The position numbers and the translations under genes were made by a program. The notes under the pieces were generated by a model. The model made no database searches, was not told the origin of the DNA, and saw nothing but the letters and a program-made list of their open reading frames with translations. Of a stretch of DNA of 64,000 nt, positions 15,776 to 63,460 are shown piece after piece. How positions within the stretch are numbered: position 1 is the stretch's first letter; each line of letters opens with the position of its first letter. Origin of the DNA: Tetraselmis striata (Eukaryota > Chlorophyta > Chlorodendrophyceae > Chlorodendrales > Chlorodendraceae); contig VCJN01003112.1 in the NCBI GenBank assembly GCA_006384855.1, positions 1 through 64,000 on the forward strand, read 5' to 3'.

Positions 15776-15859
15776 ACATTGCCGTGTCTCGCGCTCACGT
15801 CTGTCGACGAATGCCGCATGGTCGCTAATTTGTTTACTACTAGTACTAGTAGTTGGGGT

Positions 15860-17640
15860 TTTCTCTTCCCTTGCTTGTCTCAGAGCAAGCGATGTACGGC
15901 ACCAATACGGTGCTAATCTGTCCACGTGACGTGCCCGTACCGCCCGAGGAGTTGCATCGACCCAACATCCCCTCAACAATTTCATCGTCCGGCGGAAGTT
16001 GCCGTACGCCCGTTTGGCACCACCCCGCGCGCGGTTACCGACGTAGCCATCCCGGTTAGCGCCGCTCCCGCATGCTGCTTCCGTGTGCTTAAAAGCATCA
16101 GGGGGCTTATCTATCTAGCTTGTCGGCGCGATTAGGCCGCCGCTGCACACAGTGCCCCGGCATCTTACGCAGCCATGGCACGCAGCTCGTGGGCGCCATC
16201 GGACCGCCACTGCACATTGTGCCCCGGCAGCTTCCGCGGCCCATGCACGCAATTGGTCATCGGCGCCAACGGGCCGCCGTTGCACATTGTGCCCCGGGTG
16301 CTTCCGCGACCCGGGCTCGCAGTTGGTTGGCGCCACCGGGCCGCGCCACTGCGCAATGTGCCCCAGCCCGGGCCCGCTGCTCGTTGGCGCTTTCGCAGCC
16401 CGGGCACGCAGCCGGTGTGCGCCGTCACGCATCCGCTGCATCATGCCATCGCTGCACCCTGTGCCACGGCAGATTTCGCATTCCGGGCATGCAAGCGGTC
16501 TGCGTCACCATGATGTCACTACATCCAGTGCCCCGGTTGCTTCCGCGGCACGGGCATGCAGCTGGTCGGCGCCAACGGGCCGCCGCTACACATTATGGCC
16601 CGGTTGCTTCCACGACCCGGGCACGTAGCTGGTCGGTACCACCGGCTCGCCGATGCACATTGTGGCCCGGTTGCATTCGCGACCCGGGCACGCAAGTGGT
16701 CGGCGCCATCACGCCGCCACTGCACCTTGTGCCCCGCCAGTTTTCGCAGTCCGGGCACGCAGCTAGTTGGCGCCATCGGGCCGCCACTGCACCAATGCTC
16801 CGGTCGCTTTCGCGGCTTGGGGATGCGGCAGGTCGTCGCCAACAGGCCGCCGCTGCACATTGTGCCCCGGTTGCTTCCGCGGCCCGGTCACGCAGGTGGT
16901 CGGCGCCAACGGGCCGCCACTGCACAGTGTGCTTCGGTTGCTTTCGCAGCCTCGGGCCCTCCGTTGATGGGTGCCATCATGCCTTGGATGCACGCTGGGT
17001 TGCCGGGCTTCCCCTGGCGTGGCTCCCCCATGCGCGGAGCTGGCTACATACTGCATCATCCGCTTCCCCCCGCCCGCCCATAGCACGCCTCGCCCTACGA
17101 CGATAGCCAGAGCGGTCGCGGCTCTCCCGTCCGGCCTCCGCCATGCGGCCGGCGCCCAAGATTGTCCGGCAATGTGCATCATGCGAGCCTTCCCTCGAAA
17201 GGTGTATTGCTATAGTAATCATGGTTTTCTCTTCCCTTGTCTACTTAGCAAGCACGCGGTACGGCACCAATGCGGGACTAGTTCTCTGTCCATGTTGCGT
17301 GCCCGTACCGCCAGAGGAGCTGCATCGATCCAGCAGTCCCTCCGCAAGTTCATCGTCCGGCGGAAGTTGGCGACCGTACGCCCGTATGCCAGCACCCAGC
17401 GGGCGGTTACCGCCGACGCAACCATCCCGGGTAGCGTTGCTCCTGCATGCTGCTTCGTCGTGTGCTTAAAAGCACCAGGGGGCGTGCGTGTCTGTCCCCA
17501 TCCACCTTTGCCGCGGCGCACTCACCATGAGGTCGCGCCGCAACAGCCACACCCACCCTCCCTTCACTTCGGGCCTGCCTCTGAGGCTTTACTCTGCCCC
17601 CTCCCAAAGGTTTGTAATGATGCCAAAGCAACGTTTCGGC
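15860..17640 (+). mobile_element. Composite element 1: direct repeats around a 67-bp minisatellite
   Basis: A block at about 15865-16115 recurs at about 17220-17490. Both copies contain, in order, TCTCTTCCCTTG, TACGGCACCAAT, GTGCCCGTACCG, CATCGTCCGGCGGAAGTTG, CGGTTACCG, CATCCCGG and GTGCTTAAAAGCA. Between them lies a tandem array (listed separately). The right copy continues into about 150 bases that are shared with the right flank of the second element (62300-62440). The layout is like a non-autonomous LTR element with a minisatellite inside, but I see no primer-binding site or polypurine tract, and the repeat ends are not clearly TG...CA. Confidence 0.65.
16130..16980. repeat. 67-bp tandem array 1, about 13 units
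   Basis: Units of 66-70 bases repeat with a core of GGGCCGCCACTGCAC, then TGTGCCCCGG, CTTCCGCGGCCCGGGCACGC and GTCGGCGCCA. Copies differ by scattered substitutions and one- to three-base indels, so long open frames appear on several strands. These are artefacts of GC-rich repetition, not genes. Confidence 0.9.
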
Positions 17641-17800
17641 AATCTGCCTTCGTCCCCTCCCACTTAGTATGCCTGAAATACCTGTACCTGGTACTTGTAC
17701 TGATATCGACCACAAAAAGCTCGCTCGTCTGACGAGATCCGATACCAGCAGCAACACAACGATCAACCTTAACTTGTAACCTCAACCCTCGAGAGCTAAC

Positions 17801-33921: not shown

Positions 33922-36900
33922 TTATTATGTGCCGGTAGAAGCTGCAGGTTTTTTGTGTTTAGCGATGTTGTTGTGTATGATTCGTTCCTCTTTACAGTAC
34001 TATGGGCTGCTCATGCCAACTATTGTTTTGGCTACACAGATGATGAACTGATGAGCACATCGGGCATAATGGACATTGGAGAGATTATGGGCACATTCGC
34101 ATCATGGGCATATAAATCATGCGCCAACAGCGGGGAGAAATGATCGGGGAACGGCATTCGCACAGCAAGGCTGCCAGCAGCGCCATCATCAGGCGGAATG
34201 AGCAGCGAGAATAAGCAGGATCACGGTAGTATTTGTACAGGCGTACAGGTACTCGCAACCGTACTCATATGTAAAGCGCTTCAGCTTATATTGTGTGGTG
34301 CTGATGCTACCCTCACCTGCTCTCCCAATGCAGGCGCCTCTAGCGACATGCTGCATAGCAGCCAAAGGGGGGGACCGGCTACTAACCCGTACTCGTACCG
34401 ATAGCATACCGTTTTTACTACGAGCGGAACCTGCTATCAAACATTGTCAAATAATAACAGGCCAATTCTGGCCTGCGACAAAATAATGGAATACATATGA
34501 AAATATAAAAATATAAAAATAAATAGTTCATTTTGACTTTAGTAATCCGAAGCGAGATTATTACGTATCCGTGACATTCCTTCTCATTATGCCTTGATGA
34601 CAGAGCACAAAAACTGTCCCATTTCCGCCAAAGATCCTCCAAAATGGGTGGGAAATGATTATCGAGTTCATACGGGCTGAAAACTGCAAATCCCCTGATC
34701 ACCCTCCCAGCCTCATACTTCTGATACGACGACTCGGGCTGCGTAGACGACGCACATTTTAATATAAAAATAATGGTTCATTTTGACTTTAGTAGAAATA
34801 GAAAATATAAAAATAATGGTTCATTTTGACTTTAGTAATCCGAAGCGAGATTATTACGTATCCGTGACATTCCTTCTCATTATGCCTTGATGACAGAGCA
34901 CAAAAACTGTCCCATTTCCGCCAAAGATCCTCCAAAATGGGTGGGAAATGATTATCGAGTTCATACGGGCTGAAAACTGCAAATCGCCTGATCACTCTCC
35001 CAGCCTCATACTTCTGATACGACGACTCGGGCTGCGTAGACGACGCACATTTTTCGTATGGATAATCCTTACGGGCATGAATGAAACTAAAACAAGGGTC
35101 GGATTTCTCTCTATAAACCATCGTTTTCTTCCACATAGAAAACCTTGATGGTATGAAAATAAATGCGAAAACAAGCCATAGCGAGTAGTGCCTGTAGAGA
35201 AACCACCGGTGTCTTTCGCGTAACTCCTTTCGCGTTAATACCGGCTTTACTGGGTACCATACATGCCCGGAGGATAATTGCACCGCAGGCTCCGACCGGC
35301 AACCGCAGTTGGGTTTGTGGTGTTTTGGGGCGGACTTGTACGGATGATTCACGGTCGATACAAGCCTCCATTCGGTGTTTCCCAGCGCATACAAGACTCC
35401 CAGCAATCTGCCGCACTTCGCGGGCCCTCTTACCGGGCGGCTTATATGCGCCCGGAAGCACCTCCCGGTCGGCTTGCTGTATCTACCACGTGAAGACGGT
35501 ATTTACATTGAAAAGCACGAGAGAACACTTAAGATGACAAAACCTCGCAATGTGTTCTCATCTGCAGTTTTCTCTCGTGTTTTCAATGTCAATACCGCCT
35601 TCGCATGGTAGATACACGCAACTGGGAGGTGTTTCAAGGCGCATCCAGGTCGCGCGGTTAGAGGGCGCGCGAAGCGCGGCCAATCGCTGGAAGGCGTGTA
35701 TGCGCCAGGAAATAACACCGATTGGGAGCTTGTATCGACCGTGATTTATCCATACCAGTCCGCCCGGAAACACCGCGAACCCAACTGCGGTCGGAGCTGG
35801 CCGTGTAATTATCCTCCGTGAATGTATGGCTGGATACGGCACTGTAGCGTATACAACGCGTAAACGCATGAAACGAAACGCATGGACTTGTATGGATATA
35901 GTATAATTTACTATGTCAACCTACGACACCGTACTACATGGTACCTCGTACTGAGTACGCGCTTTCGGACATGTAATCCCGGTTTTCGATTACATGCCAG
36001 TTGCAACATGTTATCCTCCACCCGTGCCTAAGCCTCCAAACCATTAACAATTTCCCTTTGACCAAGGCGTAGCTCTCCCGAGACGCCCCCAAGAGTGGAG
36101 TAGATGCCCAGAACCTTTGGGGGGGAGGGGGGGTGATTTGGGGGTGGTTCATGTATTTGGTCCTGCGGACGTCAGACAAGCGGCATGACGATGGTCACTT
36201 TTGGGGACTGTTCAAGCAGCAAATTGACGCCGAGCTACTTGCCGGCGATGGGATCAACCCCATCACGGCCTTCGAGCTTGCTGCCGCGCCATTCAAGCTG
36301 CCACTATATTTAGGAAACCACGAGGTGCGCGGACTTTGTTAGGTGTGGTGGACCTGCAACGGTCGGCTGTGTGCGTTCAAGGAGAGATGCCTAGGTCGGC
36401 GACTCAATCGCCCGCGGACTGCCACATCACCACCGCCCCGTCATCAGAGGCCCACCAAAAGTGCTGGGTTTTGATTGTCCGGGTCTTAGCTGTGCAGTGA
36501 TGCTATTCGTGCAGCGAGTTGGCTTACGGACGACCGCGTTGTTATCTCCGTCTGTGGCAGCTTGCCTGCAACTGACAGGTTTCACCGTAGCAGCGGGAGT
36601 TTCCGGCTGGTCGCCACCGACGGGGGTAACAACGGGCTCGCCACCGATACAACAGGCAACGTTGGCATTGCTTAGGCTGGCGGGCAACATTGAGTCGTAT
36701 TACGATAGTTTTCCGAGGTGTACCAGGCGGTATCGTATCCGTTCCAAATATTTCCGGACTGGTTTCCTGTATTTGTAGTAGGAAATAGGGCTAGGAAACA
36801 TAGGATGGCCGATTGCTTGCGCTGTGATAACACTTCGTGTTCCTCACTATGGTTAGCATGTCCTGAGAATAACTCGGTCGGAGCGAGTGGACGCAGCAGA

Positions 36901-56822: not shown

Positions 56823-57630
56823 GCCCGCCTACCAGTACCAGTAGGATCGTGCTTATGCCCCGCCTTAAGTAGCAGGTAAGGAGGGGTCCTCAGCAGGGGT
56901 TAATAGATTAGGAGAAATAAAGAATTATGTTGGTGCAGGTCATAGACTCATAGTACAAGGATTTGTACTTTATGAGGATTACTGTCGTCCCTACTAGTAC
57001 ACGAATACCCTGTACGAATGCATGAAACTAGTACTAGGTACTAGATACTGGGCACTAGCGACTAGGAGGTGCAGTACTAGTACTTCGCCCGTATCATCCT
57101 GCATACCGAGGTACCAGGACGAGGTACGAGCCGAGGTGAGTCTGTTTGTCTATCTGTGAGTATCTGTCGCCAAATTTCGGAACGGCTTCGCATATATTAC
57201 TAGAGAGATTGAAAATGTATCCGTTAAAGATTCCGTCATAATTCCGCAAAGGTCAAAATACCCGTCGCGCTTTCCTGCGCTGGCTACTGTACCTGCATCG
57301 GTACGGGTACCGATCGGCCGGCCTGCCTGCCACCCGACCGCCGCGGGTAGTCGGTCGTCGCCGTTCGTCAGGTCTACGGGGCGGGCACGGCGCGAAGCGC
57401 CGAGCCCGCCGCGTGGACCGGACCCGGACGCTTGATGCCGTCGTTCGTCCGTCGCCGGACGGCGGACGACCGTCGCCCGTCCGCCTCGCCGCCCGTTACT
57501 CGACGGACGCCGGGCCCCGGGTCGGCGGGTAGGCGGACGCGGGGATGTACAATGTAGCGACTACTACGATTGATCCTTGCGGCTCTCTGGAGTCCACAAT
57601 CCTGCAACGGGTCCACTTTATATGTGTATT
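56823..57630. other. No gene; GC-rich hairpin at 57381-57409
   Basis: Short frames only. At 57381-57409 a GC-only stem of 12 pairs with one mismatch closes on a GAA loop. It is terminator-shaped, but that has no known meaning in a nuclear genome. Confidence 0.5.
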
Positions 57631-58329
57631 CACTACTAATAGATGGGGCTCCTCTTCCCTTGTCTACTTAACACGAACGGTACGGCACCATCATGTCCAC
57701 GTGGCGTGCGCCCGTACCGCCCAAGGAGCTGCATCGACCCAATAACACCTCAGCAGTGCCATCGTCCGACGTCCGACTTCCGACGTCGGATTGGTGTACG
57801 CCCGTACGGCACTAGCCCGCAAGCGGTTACCCAAAGCAGCCATCCCGGGTTGTGCTGCTCCCGCGAGGTGCTTCGACGTGTTATTAAAAGCATCATGGGG
57901 CTTGTGTGCCTCCATCTTCCTTTGCCGTGGCGCACCCACCATGGGTCGCGCCGCGACAGAGCTCGTGTCCTCATGACATGCAAGGTCATATTTTGTGTAC
58001 AAGCCACTGATAGTGATGCCCCGTGCCCAACTCGAGCACATGTCTCGCTATAGCGGGGAAGCGGTCTACGACCGCCCAGAGGGCACCGTGCGCCGGCTCT
58101 GCAAGATCGATGAGCCGACAACTAGACGAGTCTCCCGCAGACGGCCGTTCGACTCATCGGAGGGAACGCTCTTCGCACCTCGCGACACAAGAGCGCCCCA
58201 TGACGCCGGCGAAGAAGACCGCCCTTTGGCTTGCCGGCGAAGAAAACCCCCATTTCCGAGCAGGGACGATCCATGCGTTGGTGGTATCTGCGGCTTCAAC
58301 GCGTAACATGGCTGCCCCTCGCAGCCCCA

Positions 58330-61300
58330 AGCACACAAGTTGTCGGCGTCGTCCGGCTCCTGTTGGTTGCGCCCCCGGAGCGTCCCACGCAGTAGGATGG
58401 CGTCATCAAGCAGCCACTGCACGCAGCTAGTAGGCACCATCAAGCCGCCACTGCACCGTGTAGTGCCCAGATTGCTTTTGCGGTCCGGGCACGCAACTAA
58501 TCGGCGTCATCATCGGGCCGCCACTGCACTTATTTGTGGCACGGTTGCATCCGCAGCCCGAGCAAGCAGGTCGTCGGCGCCAACTAATGGACCGGCACTA
58601 CACCAAGTGTCCCGGTCGCTTCAGCTGTCCATGCATGCAACATGTAGGTCAGCGCCGTCGGGTCGCCATTGCACCATCAATCTCGGCTAATTCCGCGGCC
58701 CGGGCACGCAAGTGGCCGGCGCCGACAATGAAACCGCCGCTGCGCCATGTTTGTGCCCCGGTTGCATTCGCAGCCCGAGCACGCAGTTGGTCGGCGTCAT
58801 CTGACCGCCATTGCACCCTGTGTCACGTTTGCTTCCCCGGCCCGAGCACGCGGGTGGTCATCGCCAAAGGGAGCTAGTGTGCCCCAATCGCTTCCGCAGC
58901 CCGGACACGTAGCGAGGGGGAGCCGACCGGCCACAGCCGCGCCGTGTGCCACGGTTGCATCCGCATCCCGAGCACGCGGTTGGTCTACTTACGCCATCAC
59001 ACAACCAACGCACCATGTGATCCGGTCGCTTGCGCGGCCTGGGCACACAGCCGGTCGGCGTCATCATCGGGCCGCCACTGCACATTGTGCCACGGTTGCA
59101 TCCGCATCCCAGGTTCGTTGGCGGCAACAAGCCGCCATAGCACGATGTGTCCCGGTCGCTTCCGTGCTCCGCGCACGCAGTTGGTCGGCGCCATCAGGCC
59201 GCCGCTGCGCCATGTGCCACGGTTAGATCCGCAGACCGCAGTTCGTCGACGCCAACTACGGCCCCCCATTGCACGCTTTGTCCCGGCTGCTTCCGCAGCC
59301 CGGGCACGCAGCTTATCGGCGCCGACGGGCAACCACTACACCATGTGCTCCAGTCGCTTCCGTGGCCCGGGCACGCGGTTGGTCGGCGCCAACGGGCCGC
59401 CGCTGCGCCATTAAGCGCCATGCTGATTGCATCCGCAGCCCGGGCACGCAGATGATCGGCGCCATCAAGCCGCCACTGTCCCATGAGCTCAGTCGATTCC
59501 CCGGCCCGGGCACGCAGCTGTCGCTCGGCGCCAACGAGTCGCGAATCTGCGTTGTGCCCGGTTGCTTCCGAAGCCGGGGCATGCAGCTGGTCGGAGCCAA
59601 CGGGCCGCCGAGGCGCCATGTGCCTTGGTTGCATCCGCGGCTCGGGCAGGCGGTTGGTCGGCGCCAGCGGGCCACCATTGCGCCATATGTGCCCCGGTTG
59701 AATCCTCAGCCGAGCACACGGTTAATCGGCGCCTAGACCACCACGGCTCCAAGTGCTAAGGTCGCTTCCGCGGTCCATGCACTGAGTTGGTCAGCGACAT
59801 CATCGGGCCACCACTACACATGGTGTCCCGTTTGAATCCGCATCCCGAGCACGCAGCTGGTCGACCGCCGATCGGCGCCATCGAATTGGAGCTGCGTCAT
59901 ATGCCTCGGTTGCATCCGCGGCCCGAGCACGCAGGGACGCAGTTGGCCGGCGCCAATAGGTCGCCATTGCACCATGTGCCCCGTTTGCTTCCGATGTTCG
60001 TACACGCACCTAGTTGGCGCCATCGGGCCGCCAATGCTCCACGTGTCCCGGTCGCTTCCGCGGCCCGGGCACGCAGCTGGTCGGGCGGCGCCATCGGGCC
60101 GCCACTACACCATGTGTTCCGTATGCTTTCGCAGCCCGGCACGCAATTGGTCGGCGCCAATGGGCCGCCACTGCACTGTGTGCCCCGGTTGCTTTCTTCG
60201 CAGCCCAGGCACGCAGCTTGTCGGCGCCATTGGGCCACCAGCACCCTTATCCCCGGTGGTTTTCGGAGCCCAGGTCCTCATCTTGAATGCGCCAACGGGC
60301 CGCCAATGCACCATGTGTCCATGGTGCTCTCGCGGCCCGGGCACATATATAGATGATCGGCGTCATCGGCTTGCCAATGCAACATGTGCCCCGGTCGCTT
60401 CTCCGGGCCGGACCCGCAGCTGGTCGGCGCCAACGGGCCGTTACTGTACGTTGTAGTGCCCCGGCTGCGAACGTAGCTGGTCGCCGCCATGACCACAATA
60501 CCATGTGCCCCGGTTGCTTGCGCAACCCGGGCACGCAGCTTGGCGGTATCATCATCATCGGGCCGCCAAATCAGGATCGAGTTTGATAACGTGGGCGATA
60601 TAATACCTCCTTGTGGTACACCCTCCATAGTTTCAGAGAAATATTGTTCATTTCTATCATCCCAGCTTTAATGGATTCCTTTCAAATATATTAATGACTT
60701 TTAGCCGCTGATTGGTTAGTTAGCATCTAACAAGTTTTTGACTATAAAAAATGTTTTCGCCACTGATAAATTAAAGTTTGTTTGCCTTTAAATTACTTGA
60801 AGAAGCTAAATAAATCATCTTTGAAGATAATGAATAAAAAGGTCTGAATTTATACATTTGCTGATTCAAAATGTAAGCACGGTTGCATCCGCAGCCCGAG
60901 CAAGCAGTTGGTTGGCGCCATCGGGCCGCCACTACACCATGTGCCGTGGTCACTTTCCCGGCCCGGGCACGCAGCTAGCCGGCGCCATCATCGGGCTGCC
61001 ACTACACCATGTGTCCCGGTTGCTTTCGCAGCCGGGTTGCTTTCGCCGCCCGGCACCAACGGGCCACCAATGCACCTTGTGCCCCGGTTGCTTTCGCGAC
61101 ACGGGCCCGCAGTTGGTCGGCATCATCATTTGCCCGCTTCTGCACATCGTGCCGCAGTTCCATTCGCAGCCTGATCACGCGGGTGGTCGGCGCCAACGGG
61201 CTGCCGTTGTGCGCCGTTGTGTGCCGGTTGCTTTCGAAGCCCGGGCAAGCATCTAGTTGGCGCCAACTGTCCACCTACTACACCATGTGTCGCGGTCACT

Positions 61301-62105
61301 TCCCCGGCCCGGGCATGCTCATGGTAGGCGCCATCGGGCCACCAATGCACCATGTGCCCCGGTTGCTTTTGCGACACGGGCCCGCAGTTGGTCGGCATCA
61401 TCAACTGCCCGCTACTGCACATCGTGCCACGGTTGCATCCGCAGCCCGAGCACGCGGCTGGCCGGCGCCAACGGGCAGCCATTGTACGTTGTGTGCCGGT
61501 TTTTTTCGAAGCCCGGACACGCACCTAGTAGTTATTGGCGCCAACTGGTCACCACCACACCATGTGTCGCGGTCACTTCCCCGGCCCGGGCATGCAGCTG
61601 CTCGGCGCCATCGGGCCGCCACTGCACCATGTGTCCCGGTTGCTTTCGAAGCCCGGGCATGCACATGGTAGGCGCCATCGGGCCACCAATGCACCATGTG
61701 CCCCGTTGCTTTCGCGGCACGAGCCGGTCAGCTGGTCAGCCTCATCATCTGCCCGCTACTGCGCATCGTGCCACGGTTGCATCCGCAGCCCGAGCACGCG
61801 GATGGTCGCTCGGCGCCAACGGGCCACAACTGCACGCTTTTGTCGCGCTGTCGCTTCGCGGTCCGGGCCCGAAGTTGGTCGACACCATCGGGTCACCACT
61901 GCACCATGAGCCCCGCTCGCTTCCGCGGCCCGGGCACGCAGCTAGTCGGTGCCACCAAGCCGCCACTGCACCGTCGTATGCCCCGGTCGCTCCCGCGGTG
62001 CGGGCAAGTAGCTAGTCGGCGCCAACAGCCCGTCATTTTACCATGTGCCCCGGTTGTTTCCGCAACCCGCACACGCAATTGGCCGGCGCCATGGGGCCGC
62101 CACTG
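58330..62105. repeat. 67-bp tandem array 2, about 50 units
   Basis: Same unit as array 1 (GGGCCGCCACTGCACCATG, GCCCCGGTTGC, CCGCGGCCCGGGCACGC, GTCGGCGCCA), with units of 64-72 bases. Some stretches between about 61000 and 61800 repeat as blocks of several units, a sign of recent higher-order duplication. The array is broken by an AT-rich insert at about 60570-60876. Confidence 0.9.
60570..60876 (-). pseudogene. Group II intron reverse transcriptase fragment (possibly organellar)
   Basis: This roughly 300-base piece is clearly AT-rich, unlike the GC-rich array on both sides. On the minus strand it reads 'YFSETMEGVPQGGIISPTLSN', closely resembling the reverse transcriptase segment of group II intron-encoded proteins (the QGGIISPxLxN box that precedes the catalytic YADD). 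One frame upstream it reads 'IKAGMIE', which in that family lies just before ('W[LI]KAGxxE'). So a frameshift separates them. The composition suggests a mitochondrial or plastid source copied into the nucleus, though a bacterial source cannot be excluded. No YADD, X or endonuclease domain is left. Confidence 0.6.
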
Positions 62106-62689
62106 CGCTGTTATGCCCACGTGGCGCGCCCGTACCACCGGAGGAGTTGCATCGACCCAGTAGCACCTTGGCAGTGCCATCGTCCGACGGAATTTGCCGT
62201 ACGCCCGTACGGCACCACCCTGCGCGCGGTTACCCGACGCATCCATCCCGGGTAGCGCTGCTTGTGCGTGATGCTTCGTGGTGTGCTTAAAACAAAGTCC
62301 CCGTCTTCCTTACTCGTGGCGCACTCACCTACCATGGGGACGTGCCGTGACAGCCACATCCATCCTCCCCTCATGTTCGCGGGTCTGCCTTGAAGGCTTT
62401 TTGGCCGCCCTCCCAAAGGCATTTACGCCAAAGCACCTTGTGGATAATGTGCATGCACCACCTTTCTCGATTGAAATGGCGGTGCAACGAGTACTGGTGA
62501 GAATTACAAAAAGGCTAGGAACAAATCCACAGCTAAACGCAACAGTATTGATAAAAGATCAACAGAGCAAGCGGCCTAAAAGTGGCCCGCATCTAGCCAT
62601 CCAGCACGAGTACTGGTACCACGTACATCGCAAGCACGGGTTCATCGCTGTAGTTGCCAGTCTTGCCCCAAGGGCGAACACCGAGTACT

Positions 62690-63460
62690 GTTCTAAACTA
62701 GTTTATGTGGTTTCTCTAATTGTACGGGACAGCCTTGGCGCGGTGCATGTAGCGCGCGTGTGCGCGCACATGATTGCGGGGGCCGATTAGGGCCACCACC
62801 TCCCACCACGGCGGACCGACCGGTCACTTTCCTTTGTTGTGGCACGCTCCATCGAGCGCGCACCACATCAAATAAAGTTGCGGCATTTTTGCCGCGCATG
62901 GTGCCGGTCTTCCGGCATCGTACCATGTACGGTGAGCGAAGCCTTTAGCGGGGGGGGGGGGGGGGGGGGGGGGGGGGCGCGGGCTTGGGAGAAACCTGTT
63001 AGGGTTTGTGTGGTTAAAAATAATGGACGCGCGCCGCTTGCGACGTGCTAATTATTACTACCCGCGAACGAGCTGCTGATTACTCGCCCAACGCGAGGAG
63101 AGGACGAAGCCGCAGCGCCTCCCCATTCAGTGGAACCAAGGTCCAAGCTCTTCTTGTGAAATGTTCTAAACTTGTTTATGTGGTTTCTCTAACTGTACGG
63201 GATAGCCATGGCGCGACGCGCGCATGATTGCGGGGGGCGGTCAGGGCCACCACCTGCCACCACAGTAGACGGGCCGGTCACTTTGCTGTGGCACGCTCCA
63301 TCGAGCGCACCACAGCCCCCCCCCCCCCCCCCCCCCCCCGGGCTATGGGCTTGGTCGCCTACAAATTCCTGATTATCACAATATGTAGTAACCATACGGA
63401 AATTCTGGAATACTGGAATTCTTCGGCAAACCAGAAGTTCCTTGTGAAATGGTACCACTG
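62690..63460 (+). mobile_element. Repeat family E, two tandem copies
   Basis: A block starting TTCTAAACT(A/T)GTTTATGTGG, then TTTCTCTAA(T/C)TGTACGGGA, occurs at 62693 and 63165. Each copy continues through GATTGCGGGG, GGGCCACCACCT, CGGTCACTTT and GGCACGCTCCATCGAGCGC and meets a long G or C run (G28 at 62950-62977, C24 at 63316-63339). The second copy extends to about 63460. A minus-strand relative lies at 47880-48175 beside the DIRS-like relic, which suggests the family is a terminal part of that retroelement type. Confidence 0.65.

Follow-up and report, generated by a model that had tools for sequence, protein, structure and literature searches.

Two loci of the green alga Tetraselmis striata, in which a 67-bp tandem array is set between two related blocks, raise the question of what kind of element they represent. 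Both lie on the forward strand of the window, which is the whole 64,000-nucleotide stretch of DNA analysed here and a part of contig C2510. In agreement with a green-algal host, a 475-aa rbcL gene of this assembly resembles Rubisco chain 1gk8, that of Chlamydomonas, most closely. The original prediction of a block–array–block order with a common orientation at both loci was borne out by TRF, BLAST and a profile of the array unit. The four blocks were also said to be related, and BLAST indeed aligned block 2 with blocks 1, 3 and 4 at 81, 72 and 73% identity, respectively. The loci are real, but their limits had to be corrected, as the alignment of shared ends placed locus 1 at 15832 to ~17668, not at 15860-17640, and locus 2 at 57628 to 62475.

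Window loci and their relatives in the genome

In locus 1, the left split repeat (A1) begins with GTTTACTACTAGTACTAGTAGTTGGGG and occupies 15832..16106, up to which BLAST aligned it with its internal copy (A2) at 81% identity. The array follows without a leader and contains 11 units at 16135..16957, as detected by TRF (rows 16135-16364 and 16528-16957) and by an nhmmer profile HMM. Alignment with other copies located B1 (CGGCAATGTGC...CCTCGAA) at 17167..17199, directly 5' of A2, which was assigned by BLAST and the same alignment to 17202..17545 with approximate limits. C, which is missing from the left block, lies between A2 and B2 at 17546..17636 according to the block alignment, and B2 forms an eroded right end at 17637..17668, the end being placed by alignment with other copies to within ~10 bases.

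In locus 2, A1 comprises 57628..57959 (BLAST and end alignment) and is followed at 57960..58385 by a leader reaching to the array, which was delimited by block and left-end alignment and is alignable with most other left ends. The array contains 44 units at 58386..62106 (TRF and profile HMM), and TRF reported arrays of period 67-70 in several rows across 59010-62106. An AT-rich stretch of ~300 bases splits this array at ~60570-60878. A2 has lost its own start together with B1 and was aligned by BLAST to block positions 65 onward, at 62114..62350 with an approximate right limit. It is followed by C at 62351..62440 (block alignment) and by B2 with the right end (...TCTCGATTGAA) at 62441..62475 (end alignment). 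Elsewhere in the window, TRF detected a 293-bp tandem duplication with 98% matches at 34508-35053.

When we searched the genome (224,097,584 bases in 2903 contigs) with the first block, at least 40 matches of 79-100% identity were obtained (40 scored of 493 first-look candidates), two of which lay in the window itself, and 20 loci with such matches were fetched for analysis. The order of left block, array and right block was found in seven copies (L009, L014, L021, L027, L028 and both window loci), and the search of both strands revealed that blocks within one locus share their orientation. Run on both strands of 26 sequences, the unit profile counted 274 units, all in the same direction as the block and distributed over 18 of the sequences; 16 sequences had 4-44 units, two had one and eight had none. 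A dispersed family with a minisatellite body and shared ends, as predicted, is thus present, with many relatives in the genome.

Block and array are not always together, because eight of the 20 block-chosen loci had no unit in the stretch fetched and two had a single one, the other ten having at least four. The block is thus not confined to array units, a possibility raised by the original prediction. The block loci with no array or a single unit may be truncated copies or members with a different body; they include L012, L013, L016, L018, L019, L020, L022, L023 and L024, and in L012, L013 and L018 the sequence past A1 departs from the usual leader. Four other loci (L039-L042) were chosen by the array and lie on contigs absent from the first-block match list. 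Downstream of the array, the spacer, B1 and A2 were present in all four, and C and B2 in three of them; L042 breaks off inside A2. A1 and the leader were found 5' of the array in L041 and L042, and neither was detected in the 2.2-2.7 kb fetched upstream of the array in L039 and L040. The left flanks were ~98% identical within each of the pairs L012/L018, L015/L025 and L020/L023, which are probably uncollapsed haplotypes or recent duplications.

The element had been described as having no coding capacity, and none was seen; eight ORFs of the window gave no Pfam match at E up to 0.001. Among the relatives, the ~8 kb between the blocks of L028 contains two ORFs, neither with a Pfam family, and the sequence past A1 in L012 contains two more, one without a Pfam match and one with a sub-threshold match to DUF5076. 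A small repeat-flanked body holding tandem repeats could also belong to a retrozyme-like, ribozyme-bearing retroelement, whose arrays would arise from RNA rolling circles. We rejected this reading as extremely improbable, because neither a hammerhead nor any other Rfam match was found at the gathering score in the window, L009, L039, L041 and L046, or, with E values of up to 1 allowed, in the stretch 15800-17750.

Unequal blocks, shared ends and age of the copies

The alignment of the blocks revealed that left blocks end near block position 323, while complete right blocks reach ~439. The last 25-50 bases of the right-block tail, which is absent on the left, are repeated just 5' of the right block, and the copy alignment showed that the tail end CGGCAATGTGC-TGCGCCCCCTCCCTCCCTTGAA recurs directly 5' of the right block and joins GTTTACTACTAGTAGTTGGGG there. 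The plan of the family is A1–leader–array–spacer–B1A2–C–B2, which is an arrangement of split direct repeats, and the inequality of the left and right blocks is what a split-repeat model requires. The leader measures ~380-565 bases in 10 of the 12 sequences having both A1 and an array, including locus 2, and in L028 ~7 kb lie between A1 and the array instead. B is short, with 23-51 aligned columns. In 11 of 13 loci, B1 and B2 aligned with a score above the highest of 200 shuffles; this set leaves out L011, L022 and locus 2, and within it L039 and L040 are near-duplicates. The scores not above the shuffles were those of locus 1 (17, best shuffle 27) and of L042 (12, best shuffle 20), the right end of which is cut off. 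In the copy alignment, L022 seems to have no B1.

These features bear on the suggestion that the element is an LTR element in miniature. Direct repeats do lie near the ends, but they are split into A1, B1A2 and B2 and are not LTR-like. A non-autonomous LTR retrotransposon of small size, either TRIM/SMART-like or resembling Retand in its tandem repeats, would account for direct repeats of ~320 bases flanking the body, for the absence of visible coding capacity and for the many copies. However, C and B2 are missing from the left block, so that the terminal repeats are unequal (~323 versus ~439), and an internal copy of B1 lies 5' of A2.

We then compared the ends of the copies, which were aligned visually; left ends of L014, L016, L018, L021, L023, L025 and L027 and right ends of locus 1 and L042 were left out as truncated, eroded, deviating or duplicate. 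The left end reads GTTTAC exactly in 7 of 13 copies and as a near variant in the other 6, and 5 of the 13 stand directly after ATTTT. The right end stops at TTGAA in 13 of 14 copies and at TTGAC in one, with AT next in nine, and the flanks then diverge. The ends are common to copies whose flanks are otherwise unrelated and which lie on many contigs, so the borders are not without a defined end, which the original prediction had considered as an alternative.

We also looked for target-site duplications, which had been proposed as a check. The longest flank match in the four valid two-ended copies was 2 bases in L009, 2 in L041, 3 in locus 2 and 5 (ATTTT) in L028, and a long target-site duplication is absent in these four; L011 was left out of this test and of the within-locus mean given below, since its ends belong to two neighbouring elements. 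The 5-base match of L028 would suit an LTR retrotransposon, but the other two-ended copies match in 2, 2 and 3 bases only and the ends are not TG...CA. Four genome searches with the joined flanks of locus 2, L028, L041 and locus 1 gave no exact empty site. Diverged relatives of the L028 site without the insertion exist, and five of the seven fetched match across the insertion point, being diverged there.

It had further been expected that within-locus block pairs would be closer than between-locus pairs if the replication was LTR-like. The identity of A1 and A2 within a locus was 75.9-89.2% with a mean of 80.9% (7 loci), and that of blocks between loci averaged 80.4% with an SD of 4.2 (427 pairs, including three haplotype-like pairs), so the former pairs are not clearly closer. 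In the block tree, which is nearly star-shaped, two of the seven within-locus pairs are sisters. Given the age of the copies and this near-star shape, the tree neither confirms nor refutes the LTR prediction; both window copies are likewise old, decayed insertions. Based on the unequal blocks, the internal B1 and the lack of a clear target-site duplication, the LTR reading is disfavoured, and we regard it as very unlikely.

The left ends of L009, L013, L016, L041 and the window copy at 57500-57630 lie ~0-40 bases from the end of another repeat, which in L009, L013 and L016 is the right end of one of the tyrosine-recombinase elements described below. Insertion at related joints may account for left ends near other repeat ends. 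The junction of the L041 left flank with A1 was found at one other of 40 scored places (C763, 73%), and C604 and C2720 matched the flank only.

The B1A2 joint and tyrosine-recombinase elements

Split direct repeats characterise the PAT/TOC type of tyrosine-recombinase (YR) elements. When the genome was searched with a 33-base pattern of the B1A2 joint, 99 matches (43 forward and 56 reverse) were found at up to 3 mismatches, and the reversed pattern, used as a control, gave none at the same threshold. The list of 99 joints is common to at least two families, and neither window copy is among them. At least one of the joints, that in L047 (C1921:210700-214000), belongs to another family, a third one with its own B (GGCAAACCACA...CCCTCC) and the same joint core TTTGAAATGTTTACTACCAGTAGTTGGGGTTTCC; of the two ORFs upstream of this variant joint, neither has a Pfam family.

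The window contains a second, miniature split-direct-repeat element of ~0.77 kb at 62689-63451, which starts ~210 bases past locus 2 and has a joint resembling that of the YR family. Its A1 (62689-62867) and A2 (63162-63314) are identical in 139 of 179 columns, with a score of 164 versus 25 for the highest of 300 shuffles. CTTGTGAAATG occurs twice, at 63153 and at 63441, and scores 22 versus 18 for the best shuffle.

At C2083 37715-41479, three B1A2 joints are exactly 1866 bases apart, which marks a split-repeat element multimerised in tandem, as repeated insertion at the joint or multimeric circles would give. This tandem form would also suit a higher-order satellite, or a segmental duplication of a satellite-bearing region, that is not mobile, and so would the three locus pairs with 98% identical left flanks, which are probably haplotypes, and the left flank joined to A1 that L041 shares with C763. 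Ends that are common while the flanks otherwise differ, and copies spread over many contigs, speak against such an origin; as the shared ends are joined to unrelated flanks, the satellite reading is disfavoured and appears highly improbable to us.

No YR or reverse transcriptase (RT) gene bearing the A and B of the minisatellite family, and hence no autonomous partner of its own, was found in L028, in L012, in four loci with PF00589 or upstream of the L047 joint. A separate YR family was present, in which a 553-aa ORF of L029 passed the cut-off for PF02899 (6.7e-8) and did not reach that for PF00589 (2.4e-4); the L046 copy matched PF00589 at 4e-6, at the cut-off. Among the solved chains listed as matches of the YR ORF, 17 of 17 were Cre or its derivative Tre, and the best was Cre with an E of 0.0013 over residues 473-514, a stretch that holds HSLR ... 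GGW ... DYIDP. The family occupies at least 78 places (78 scored of 7696 first-look candidates), the other 77 being 92-95% identical. L029 and L046 have the plan A1 - upstream ORF - YR - B1A2 - B2 within ~3.1-3.2 kb. L045 follows this plan as well, except that its B1 is damaged, and L031 has identical A1 and A2 (188/188) and an interruption of ~5.9 kb. Of the four loci with PF00589, L045 and L046 belong to this YR family, L044 matches neither family, and L043 (C2009:40000-47000) was rejected as a partner, as by eye it looks bacterial with dense ORFs and an integrase, which suggests that this contig of the assembly is a bacterial contaminant.

The A and B bodies of the YR elements differ from those of the minisatellite family. 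The joints of the two families (that of L029 being TTGAAATGATCTAAACTAGTTTATGGGGTTTCCTC), when aligned with each other, scored above all of 2000 shuffles, with 31 versus 23 for L029, 33 versus 24 for L046 and 27 versus 25 for L045, where the alignment covers the A side only. Since the joints align above shuffles, both families share the sequence that would be the substrate of a recombinase. We therefore suggest that the YR elements are the likely helper of the minisatellite family, and we infer that one recombinase serves both families by cross-mobilisation.

Pfam detected no RT among the ORFs within the L029, L031 and L046 elements and no meaningful match for the upstream ORF of the YR elements; an RT fragment (RVT_1, PF00078, 6.9e-4, below the cut-off) lies outside the L046 element, ~335 bases past its right end. 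We also infer an RNA step in the spread of the family, which is left unproven, as no RT was found inside the YR elements read. On the - strand of L016, positions 1-2508 hold a retroelement that in Pfam matches a Dam-like methyltransferase, below the cut-off, and an aspartyl protease; its read-through piece adds matches to RVT_1 and RNase H, which makes the combination unusual.

It is conceivable that the helper is a Crypton-like YR transposon that replicates without RT and uses the split repeats only for circles, and the length of ~3.1-3.2 kb, filled by the Pfam-less upstream ORF and the YR, would agree with this. However, split direct repeats are known from RT-bearing PAT and Ngaro elements (PMC4157794), and four YR copies were read of the 78 scored, so RT-bearing members may be unsampled; we consider a DNA-only helper distinctly unlikely. 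An unlikely reading of broader scope is that YR split-repeat elements without reverse transcription drive this genome and that several families in which no recombinase is recognised share little except the joint, these being the minisatellite family, the L047 family and the 0.77-kb element at 62689-63451. If it were true, the internal B1A2 would serve circle formation at the DNA level, and minisatellites would spread as cargo.

Proposed mechanism and comparison with known systems

Based on the split repeats, the shared ends and the joint, we suggest that the minisatellite family very probably consists of mobile, non-autonomous PAT/TOC-type elements, which belong to the YR elements of the DIRS order. 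An element copy would be closed into a circle with a B–A joint, for which the internal B1A2 could be the template, by analogy with the published circle model of DIRS1-like elements, in which integration makes no target-site duplication (PMC3266345). The recombinase of the coding relative would recognise the joint (TTGAA / ATG / TTTACTACTAGTAGTTGGGGTTTCC), and strand exchange would then insert the circle, leaving no target-site duplication. As cargo under little constraint, the 67-bp array would grow and shrink; in 16 sequences it has between 4 and 44 units.

The original prediction knew of no standard class with this plan, and this part did not hold, as PAT/TOC elements have it according to PMC4157794 and PMC8969392. 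Split-repeat DIRS elements are given the order A1-internal-B1-A2-B2, and DIRS elements are described as having no target-site duplications (PMC8969392). Pat1, Toc and Kangaroo are PAT elements with split direct repeats, with Toc3 in algae and Kangaroo in Volvox (PMC4157794). PAT-like DIRS elements are known in relatives of Chlamydomonas (PMC8226300), and PMC7722844 tabulates 59 copies of TOC1, which it treats as retrotransposon-like. Among the literature matches listed, no title concerned minisatellites in DIRS elements. The minisatellite family shares the order A1-internal-B1-A2-B2 with PAT, Kangaroo and Toc3 elements, and the flank matches of 2-5 bases in its four two-ended copies may agree with their lack of target-site duplications. 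Autonomous members of the PAT/TOC group carry an RT, RNase H and a methyltransferase (MT); in the minisatellite family itself, neither an RT nor an MT nor a YR was seen.

The B1A2 joint provides a sequence criterion for non-coding members, which LTR and TIR finders would miss. A second family with a plausible helper beside it suggests that the plan is a recurring route by which a tandem array is spread by a tyrosine recombinase. Minisatellite-bearing non-autonomous elements also exist in other classes, such as Retand and the Helentron-derived DINE-TR; they are likewise mobile with a tandem array in the body, but their ends and transposition machinery are unlike those of the minisatellite family. 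TOC1 of Chlamydomonas reinhardtii, which Day and colleagues are said to have described in 1988, reportedly has split terminal repeats and an internal 76-bp tandem array, and no obvious autonomous coding. To our knowledge, no other split-repeat element with a minisatellite at its core is better known. The Tetraselmis family is TOC1-like by its architecture, not by its sequence: like TOC1 as reported, it has split repeats and an internal array, with a unit of 67 bp versus reportedly 76 bp in TOC1. The kind is rare but already known, and the minisatellite family adds a new member to it, a second TOC1-like family from a green alga and one for which the genome itself offers a plausible helper.
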